A stretch of 64,000 bases of DNA from Candidatus Kuenenia hertensis (lineage in GTDB: Bacteria; Planctomycetota; Brocadiia; Brocadiales; Brocadiaceae), in contig SOET01000003.1 of assembly GCA_021646465.1 (NCBI GenBank), forward strand, positions 62,001-126,000. Direction: 5' to 3'. Below, one piece after another: positions 57,750-60,779 of this stretch. Position 1 is the stretch's first letter, and each line of letters starts with the position of its first letter. Both the position numbers and the translations under genes were made by a program. The notes under the pieces are model-generated. The model saw only the letters and a list, made by a program, of their open reading frames with translations, had not been told where the DNA came from and ran no database searches.

Positions 57750-57920
57750 TTAATCACATGTACAGCACACGGTTAACGATGTCAGACAAAGTTCTTGGTA
57801 TTCAAGTTCTTCAGATTTGATGCTATTGTTAGATATACCTTTTCTAAAAAAGGTGTTTACATCATCATTGATCTGAATAGCTTCTTTATCATCGTACTTT
57901 TTTGTTATTACCTGGTTCAT
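57750..57920 (-). CDS. Putative RiPP precursor peptide
   Basis: A 56-residue peptide too short for simple gene finders. It starts at an ATG with a perfect GGAGG seven bases upstream. The first 44 residues are hydrophilic and leader-like (NQVITKKYDDKEAIQINDDV region, then EELEYQE). The last 12 residues form a Cys-rich, otherwise Thr/Ser/Leu-rich core: CLTSLTVCCTCD, four Cys. It begins 42 bases after the stop of a radical SAM/SPASM maturase on the same strand. I infer a substrate for that enzyme, for instance thioether crosslinking from Cys. The mature product is unknown. Confidence 0.7.
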   Translation of the reverse strand: MNQVITKKYDDKEAIQINDDVNTFFRKGISNNSIKSEELEYQELCLTSLTVCCTCD

Positions 57921-57961
57921 GTTGACCTCCGTAAAGATTGATTAATTAATTGATTAATACG

Positions 57962-59323
57962 TTACGAAAAAAGTGAATTTTTCATTTTCCTCACCTCCTT
58001 GGTATTTTTAAAAACTAATGCACTCATTAATTTATTCATGAATAAATTAAGACGACCCGTGTCATATCCGTTCAAATCGAGCTCCTTGCTTAAGATAAAT
58101 TTTCTTTTATTAAATAAAAATGAGAACAACGAATATTCAGCTTTATTTAGTAATGCAAACCTTTCACCTCGAATTACATATAGATTATCGCCATCATTTC
58201 TCACCCTAACTCTGTCCTTAAACTCAAGCTCCTGATCCAACAAGTCATACTGAATAAAAATATTTTGTGTTAAGTTGTTGTTATGAGGCTTGTAATATCT
58301 GCATTTTCCATCAACTTTACCAGTTAGTGCTATAGCTTCCGTTTTGCATCCGCCTTTACATGACACTGCTATATTGCAATTGACGCAATCACTTGGAAGT
58401 ATCTTTTTGAGGTTACCAGCATTTGTTCCATCGTATTCACTGAGACGGGACTTAATTTGTTCAAGAGAATCAGTAAAAACATTCCCTACTACGTTTTCCC
58501 ATACCGGACATGGTTTAACGTCTCCGTCAGCATTCAAAGTCATGCTGTTTGCAAGCCCTATTGTGCAGCCTTTATAGAAATCATATTTTCGATATTTCTC
58601 GTCAAGATCGGAGGTAAAACAAAGAGGAATCGGTCTGCTCAGCGAAATTTCGATATTAAAATCTTTTTCGATGGCAATAATTTGGTCCAATAAATGAAGA
58701 GCCTCATTATTGCTTACAATATAATCATTATGCTGTGTACCGGAAGGGCTGAGCGGTGACATGCTAAATTTATGTATCTGGAATCGCTCACACAAAAACT
58801 TTGCAGTATCATATACATCATCTATATTGTTTATTGGCGATTTCATAACAACCATATTTGCCGTTGTCTTTATATTGTGTTTGGTTAAATACTCGAACCC
58901 TTTCAATGTCCTGGCGTAATTATTATTTCCGCCAGCAATTGTGTTAAATTTTTCTTCATGATGACTCATAAATGAGACAAACATACCGGCAATAGTATTT
59001 GCTTTCAAAAAGGCAGCCGTATCATTATCCATCAATGATAAGTTTGAATTAATACTGAAATCTATGTTGGTAGTATTTCTTAGATAAATGATTACATTTT
59101 TCAACACTTTTTTCTCAGCTAATGGTTCACCGCCGGTAAAAGTTATGTCAAAAACATTCCACTTAGACAGAATATCGATAATCCTCTTTAATTTTTCCCC
59201 CTTCTCTTTATAATAGAGTCCCTTCTTCTTAATAAATTCCTCTTTGTAGCAGTATGGACAATGGTGGTTGCAAACATATGTTGTTTCCAGTCTTATAACC
59301 AATGGCGTTAAAAAATCAGTCAT
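57962..59323 (-). CDS. Radical SAM/SPASM peptide maturase
   Basis: A 453-residue radical SAM enzyme. The cluster motif is CNHHCPYC (Cys18, 22, 25), followed by TGGEPL. A SPASM region carries seven Cys in the expected order (about 253, 272, 313, 316, 322, 326, 341; CPVW, CVNC, CKGGC, CRYY) for two auxiliary clusters. The last 100 residues (RVRVRNDGDNLYVIRG, ALLNKAEYSLF) resemble a PqqD-like recognition element that could hold the leader peptide. Enzymes of this type make thioether or carbon-carbon crosslinks in peptides. It overlaps the P-loop gene by four bases (ATGA), and a putative precursor follows it. Confidence 0.85.
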   Translation of the reverse strand: MTDFLTPLVIRLETTYVCNHHCPYCYKEEFIKKKGLYYKEKGEKLKRIIDILSKWNVFDITFTGGEPLAEKKVLKNVIIYLRNTTNIDFSINSNLSLMDNDTAAFLKANTIAGMFVSFMSHHEEKFNTIAGGNNNYARTLKGFEYLTKHNIKTTANMVVMKSPINNIDDVYDTAKFLCERFQIHKFSMSPLSPSGTQHNDYIVSNNEALHLLDQIIAIEKDFNIEISLSRPIPLCFTSDLDEKYRKYDFYKGCTIGLANSMTLNADGDVKPCPVWENVVGNVFTDSLEQIKSRLSEYDGTNAGNLKKILPSDCVNCNIAVSCKGGCKTEAIALTGKVDGKCRYYKPHNNNLTQNIFIQYDLLDQELEFKDRVRVRNDGDNLYVIRGERFALLNKAEYSLFSFLFNKRKFILSKELDLNGYDTGRLNLFMNKLMSALVFKNTKEVRKMKNSLFS

Positions 59324-59877
59324 GATCTCCCCTCCTTTACCTTTAATATATTTTGAATAAACTCCGCTCGCTCTTTAATAGAAGAAGAATACGGAACCAC
59401 GCAAATAGAATAACCTAACTCAGTAATTACATCCCGCGTTATAGAATGATATTTCAGAGATTCTTCATATGAAAAAAACTTACGCGGCCACCCATTTTTA
59501 TGGTTCTCGAAAGGTATTGGTTCGACCAGGAAAACTTGCTCATGTATGTTTACTCTCTTCGCCAGGTCATAAAAAACGCCAGGCACTTCGAGATGAAAGA
59601 ATTTTCGTAACACTATTGGAGCAAAAAAGACTCTATCGAAGTACATAGTGTTAGCATTTGATAGCAACGCGTCGTTAAACTGCTGATCCTTGAGCTGCAA
59701 AAACAGGTTTGTAAACTCTTCAGGATTATCCCGGGGAGAATATGTTTCCCTGCCTTTCATTTCATAAATGAGGGGCACTATGCTACAGAATACCTTTTCA
59801 TTATTTGCCTGCAATTCTTTAAGAATGGACGTCTTTCCTCCAGCCCATCCACCTTCTAAACTTATGATTTTTTTCAT
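59320..59877 (-). CDS. P-loop NTPase of the RiPP-like locus
   Basis: A 185-residue AAA_28/thymidylate-kinase-like ATPase. Walker A is EGGWAGGKTSI at residues 8-18 (preceded by KKIISL), and a likely Walker B lies in the VFLVEPIPF stretch. It may phosphorylate or energise something in the peptide pathway, or act in self-immunity; I cannot tell which. It is the first gene of a three-gene leftward unit with the maturase and the precursor. The conserved leader copy C lies upstream of its start. Confidence 0.75.
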   Translation of the reverse strand: MKKIISLEGGWAGGKTSILKELQANNEKVFCSIVPLIYEMKGRETYSPRDNPEEFTNLFLQLKDQQFNDALLSNANTMYFDRVFFAPIVLRKFFHLEVPGVFYDLAKRVNIHEQVFLVEPIPFENHKNGWPRKFFSYEESLKYHSITRDVITELGYSICVVPYSSSIKERAEFIQNILKVKEGRS

Positions 59878-60330: not shown

Positions 60331-60368
60331 TTTATTTTTTCCTCATTCTATATGATGATACTTTTAAA

Positions 60369-60575
60369 GGGAGCATTCCCGGTTTTTTGTAAAAAAGCAT
60401 CCTTAATTTCATCAAAAGATGAAAACCCTTCGACTCCGCTCAGGGTGACGGTGATCGTCATGCTGATCCCTTCGCTTATGTCATGCTGAGCGGAGTCGAA
60501 GCATCTTTACCGCTAAGGATAAACTCCGTCGAAGCATAATAAACGATAGTTTTACAAAAAATCGGAAATGCTCCC
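60369..60575. repeat. Miniature element, family B copy 3 (207 bp)
   Basis: Nearly the reverse complement of the 209-bp element at 49815: TIRs GGGAGCATTCCC and GGAAATGCTCCC, with the same internal CTTCGACTCCGCTCAG units. No target duplication is visible. The long gap 60331-61683 holds this element, a palindrome, the ncRNA candidate and a leader copy. Confidence 0.85.
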
Positions 60576-60606
60576 TTTGTAACTGTTAATGGGATCTGGA
60601 CAAAAC

Positions 60607-60639
60607 AACCCTGACAGGGTTCAGAACCCTGTCAGGGTT
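60607..60639. repeat. Palindromic repeat AACCCTGACAGGGTT, copy 3
   Basis: Third copy of the 33-base double palindrome of 56388, in the same order as copy 1, with CAG between the units. Confidence 0.75.
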
Positions 60640-60779
60640 AGCGCTGCTGTAACGTTTCATTAAAACCCCGCGGAAGTTACAAAAAATAAGGAATACTCCC
60701 ACCAAAATGTATTGCTTATTTCCTATGCCTGATTCCAATCAAAAAACGTACAGGCAATGCTTAACACATGATTTTATTT

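Follow-up and report, generated by a model that had tools for sequence, protein, structure and literature searches.

A candidate radical SAM peptide operon with a kinase-like partner in Candidatus Kuenenia hertensis

Do a radical SAM/SPASM enzyme, a kinase-like P-loop protein, and a 56-amino acid ORF in the genome of Candidatus Kuenenia hertensis make up a peptide-modifying pathway, as a first-pass annotation had proposed? The window that we analyzed is a stretch of 64,000 nucleotides, and reading its ORFs places three minus-strand genes in series: the P-loop protein (59320..59877, 185 aa), the enzyme (57962..59323, 453 aa, with a CNHHCPYC motif and seven SPASM cysteines), which we call the maturase, and the 56-aa ORF (57750..57920), a candidate RiPP precursor with the sequence MNQVITKKYDDKEAIQINDDVNTFFRKGISNNSIKSEELEYQELCLTSLTVCCTCD. 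All three run leftward, as described earlier. The stop codon of the first gene overlaps the start codon of the second as ATGA. Because the kinase gene overlaps the maturase gene, the two are probably co-translated, and the kinase probably belongs to the pathway. Pfam and neighbor checks of the neighboring genes revealed no protease or exporter. An Rfam scan gave no match, and matches to promoters and terminators occurred only at chance level.

The identity of the maturase is well defined. It scores 75 bits against the Pfam Radical_SAM model, above the cut-off, and 26.3 bits against SPASM (cut-off 21.5). The radical SAM CxxxCxxC motif is formed by C18, C22, and C25, and the seven SPASM cysteines lie at positions 253, 272, 313, 316, 322, 326, and 341, with G267 in the motif. 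This spacing matches the canonical CX9-15GX4C-gap-CX2CX5CX3C-gap-C pattern and, together with the Pfam match, bears out the original assignment of a radical SAM/SPASM enzyme with seven SPASM cysteines. Over its full length, the closest curated NCBIfam families are the peptide and cofactor maturases GeoRSP, NirJ2, ScmE, PapB, and PqqE; GeoRSP is the best match, with a score of 101 bits where the cut-off is 400.

The annotation had also given this enzyme a PqqD-like tail, an assignment that we could not reproduce. The tail (residues 347-453; 57965..58285, minus strand) matches nothing in Pfam or NCBIfam, even with the threshold relaxed to E ≤ 10. Compared by profile with 24 PqqD sequences drawn from genomes of the family, it scores no better than shuffled sequences, with no improvement after the tails of distant maturase relatives were added. 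The structural models are weak and conflicting: AlphaFold run without an alignment on the full-length protein predicts a strand-strand-strand-helix-helix arrangement (pLDDT of about 30), and the isolated tail is modeled as all-helical (pLDDT of 57). No PqqD gene adjoins the operon. The tail is only a possible leader-binding (RRE-like) domain.

Sequence features make the 56-aa ORF a plausible small gene. It begins 41 nt after the maturase stop codon and carries a GGAGGT ribosome site, read as GGAGGTCAAC-ATG (57921..57932, minus strand, ACGGAGGTCAAC), so that the ribosome site ascribed earlier to a 56-residue peptide is indeed present. The encoded peptide ends in CLTSLTVCCTCD. Across the whole window, 32 ORFs of 25-110 aa are preceded by a 5-6 nt Shine-Dalgarno sequence, and of these the 56-aa ORF alone has four Cys within the final 12 residues. 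The codon-usage score of this ORF exceeds that of 97.7% of base shuffles (2.3% reach it), which is a modest gain. Just upstream, inside the 3′ end of the maturase gene (57983..58000, minus strand), lies a perfect 10-nt Shine-Dalgarno sequence, AAGGAGGTGA, followed by an in-frame ATG that reads MKNSLFS-stop. This is the only copy in the window, where 0.15 would be expected by chance, and the predicted RNA fold around it is nothing special. Such a site may allow re-initiation or translational coupling to the precursor.

Searches for the peptide covered its own genome, plasmids, and viral contigs. No second copy was found in the genome and no match in plasmids; no NCBIfam model matches it, and comparison with solved structures gave nothing meaningful (one match, E of 0.9). 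One viral-contig match was discarded as a chance hit because it runs antisense to a longer ORF (L094). A separate candidate RiPP pair does occur elsewhere in the genome (L106:3842-5395, on G000:C42), where a peptide of 58-69 aa ending in GCNTYESRGTGIGCRC is encoded just ahead of a radical SAM/SPASM enzyme of 422 aa. Adjoining this pair, at L106:5845-8460, are a reverse transcriptase-Cas1 fusion of 778 aa and then Cas2.

The P-loop protein matches Pfam AAA_28 (PF13521) above the cut-off, with 58 bits across essentially the full profile (positions 2-164 of 164), and has the P-loop EGGWAGGKTS and the DR motif FDRVFF. AAA_28 includes small-molecule kinases such as the NadR kinase domain. The protein has no relative among 392 genomes of the phylum and no match in plasmids or phages. 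A P-loop pattern scan of genome contigs returned 20 loci; nearly all encode larger P-loop NTPases of the EGGWxxGK type, and no relative of the kinase is among them. A kinase-like NTPase had been called unusual for such a locus and appears to be so: our literature search found no paper in which AAA_28 occurs together with radical SAM enzymes, nor one that combines thymidylate kinase with both radical SAM and SPASM.

Wherever the three proteins were searched for, none yielded a close relative. For lack of such relatives, the trio with a conserved C-terminal Cys pattern that the first-pass annotation had proposed to look for did not turn up elsewhere. Among 33 family genomes, the maturase matches only itself and one protein at 27% identity, and the same two matches were recovered from the 392 phylum genomes. 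None appeared at E of 1e-25 in 395 genomes from the phylum to which a Ca. Desulfatibia record belongs. The best relatives in the Omnitrophota and Bacillota samples each share 29% identity. The phylum labels are those given in the record titles of the genomes on which the samples were centered. Genome contigs and viral contigs held no close maturase relative, the latter even after the search patterns were widened by guided alignments, and plasmids yielded only generic radical SAM matches. These genome sets are samples, and rarer relatives may therefore exist.

The distant relatives fall into two groups, glycan-type loci and peptide-bearing Bacillota cassettes. Three Bacillota maturases (L062, L096, and L097) are 25-29% identical to that of the window, and each locus contains a genuine PqqD and, beside the maturase or its PqqD, a short, Shine-Dalgarno-bearing peptide with a Cys-rich end. 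These peptides are, in turn, MKKKVFNPKIEVFDAFKKPFDDKSEKVVLKLGEKSMACSACTACTACR, a homologous one ending DACCACTACTACSACK, and one ending NWCFGCTNCNCN, with the Cys-rich C-termini CSACTACTACR, CCACTACTACSACK, and CFGCTNCNCN. Those of L062 and L096 have a common leader (PKIEVFD-FK-PF) and an ACTAC core, and no NCBIfam model matches the L062 peptide. The regions L062:3274-5810 and L096:2381-4978 are homologous cassettes, each with a peptide whose C-terminus is of the ACTACTAC type, two radical SAM/SPASM enzymes, and PqqD. A fourth Bacillota relative (L063) lies on a short contig that shows no peptide of this kind. Short Cys-rich ORFs with a Shine-Dalgarno sequence were otherwise few among the 19 loci scanned. 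The glycan-type loci comprise the best three from Omnitrophota (L058, L059, and L060) and L009/L061 of the same family, with similar or slightly higher scores. Their enzymes measure 448-474 aa, and no short Cys-rich peptide adjoins them; the NeuB-, cytidylyltransferase-, and methyltransferase-like neighbors were named by eye from sequence. The L058, L059, and L060 enzymes have an RFRKEDGFY-type tail in common. Because Cys-rich peptides stand beside distant Bacillota maturases, a precursor role for the 56-aa ORF of the window is likely, by analogy and not by homology. The RiPP reading as a whole is likely rather than certain because the other relatives sit in glycan loci that lack such a peptide.

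The history of the trio may differ from that of its surroundings. The G+C content is 0.345 for the maturase gene and 0.322 for the peptide gene, compared with 0.408 ± 0.034 for 41 ORFs of the window, and that of the kinase gene (0.385) falls within one standard deviation. The trio is absent from the other 32 family genomes. This absence and the low G+C content of the maturase and peptide genes make lateral acquisition likely. Dispersed repeats surround the region, and no clean empty site was found, as same-genus genomes gave only repeat matches. At 60362-60707 of the window, a CTTCGACTCCGCTCAG palindrome and AACCCTGACAGGGTT inverted repeats lie in a segment with matches at many sites across this and same-genus genomes.

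On balance, we favor the reading of the trio as a compact radical-SAM RiPP operon in which the 56-aa peptide is the precursor, thioethers are the most likely modification, and the kinase is accessory. SPASM maturases are established to join a Cys sulfur to a carbon of another residue by way of a 5′-deoxyadenosyl radical (PMC8326336). Here, precursor residues 1 to about 43 would form the leader and the C-terminal CLTSLTVCCTCD the core. The maturase would bind the leader, possibly through its C-terminal tail, remove hydrogen from core residues, and link the sulfur of Cys to carbon, in all likelihood as thioethers; with four Cys, one to four such crosslinks would be possible. The genes, their domains, the overlap, and the translation signals are observed directly, whereas the precursor role, the thioether chemistry, leader binding by the tail, and the function of the kinase are inferences. 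The AAA_28 protein would most likely phosphorylate a small molecule or a peptide and so tailor the product or support the pathway. A more specific version, in which this kinase and the SPASM maturase both act on the Cys/Thr/Ser C-terminus, for example by phosphorylation of core Ser or Thr either preceding or following the radical crosslinking, and leader recognition resides in an unrecognized C-terminal domain of the maturase, strikes us as improbable. The first-pass proposal of a RiPP pathway is therefore upheld in part: the SPASM enzyme, the translation signals of the short ORF, and the Cys-rich peptides beside three distant relatives speak for it. Against it stand the precursor and kinase, for which the searches detected no homologue, the glycan-type loci of relatives with similar or slightly higher scores, the undetected RRE-like tail, and the lack of a protease or exporter nearby.

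A different assignment of the locus altogether, which we judge rather unlikely, is that the enzyme and kinase make up a pathway for a small molecule (a sugar, nucleotide, or cofactor) and that the short ORF has another function or is not a substrate. The glycan-type loci, whose enzymes are of similar length and among the best-scoring relatives, would fit this assignment, as would the small-molecule kinases within AAA_28 and a maturase tail that is not demonstrable as a leader-binding domain. It accounts poorly for the full SPASM cysteine set, for an ORF that follows closely, carries strong translation signals, and has four Cys at its C-terminal end, and for the peptide-bearing cassettes of the Bacillota relatives. 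Another candidate reading is a prokaryotic-viperin-like antiviral pair, in which a radical SAM enzyme that makes a modified nucleotide works with an associated nucleotide kinase. PADLOC reports pVip at 51.8 bits for the enzyme and VakA at E of 0.002 for the kinase, and viperins are among the sequence matches in solved structures. However, pVip aligns only with residues 7-193, the radical SAM core, and twice its score is reached by the best SPASM model, which covers residues 6-338. The VakA match spans residues 1-54 only. We rejected this pair, which is very improbable, because the enzyme has a seven-Cys SPASM domain and the pVip match is not full-length.

The peptide could instead be the substrate of a chemistry other than thioether formation, such as a carbon-carbon or ether bond, epimerization, or excision to a redox cofactor in the manner of PQQ or mycofactocin, with the cysteines binding a metal or serving in redox. 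PqqE and mycofactocin maturase models do appear among the NCBIfam neighbors, and the lack of a nearby exporter or protease might suit an intracellular product. Yet four Cys within a Thr/Ser-rich C-terminus of 12 residues resemble thioether-peptide cores more than cofactor precursors, and we hold this alternative to be unlikely. Should the favored reading of a thioether-forming RiPP operon be correct, the locus would represent a minimal three-gene radical-SAM peptide pathway that is new to the lineage and missing from the sampled family members, in which a kinase-like P-loop protein is paired with a SPASM enzyme. Being small and easy to express, it would also be suited to tests of crosslink chemistry and leader recognition.

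The general layout of the operon is of a known kind; its unusual parts are the kinase partner and the orphan precursor. Like the thioether RiPPs (sactipeptides and the ranthipeptides SCIFF/CteAB and PapAB freyrasin), it has a SPASM maturase beside a short precursor with a Cys-rich end. The window maturase nevertheless scores far under the cut-offs of these families (74 bits against 340 for PapB and 54 against 425 for the SCIFF maturase) and lacks an N-terminal RRE, since its radical SAM motif starts at residue 18; the operon has an extra kinase-like gene, and the CLTSLTVCCTCD core departs from both the SCIFF and the CxxxD patterns. GeoRSP (TIGR04303) provides the best curated match across both the radical SAM and SPASM domains, but the score is well short of its cut-off and the peptide is without an NCBIfam match. 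The ACGX-type or AC-repeat cassettes of L097, L062, and L096 likewise combine a SPASM enzyme with a short Cys-rich-ended peptide and a ribosome site. In these cassettes the maturases number one or two and PqqD is a separate gene; the window operon differs in having no PqqD gene, no AC repeats, and an additional AAA_28 protein. Kinases are known from RiPP clusters: the lasso-peptide kinases PadeK and ThcoK, for which a His-Lys-Asp-Asp motif is described, phosphorylate precursors and act on the C-terminus (PMC9266682). The window protein resembles them in being a kinase-like member of a candidate RiPP cluster and differs from them as an AAA_28 P-loop protein.
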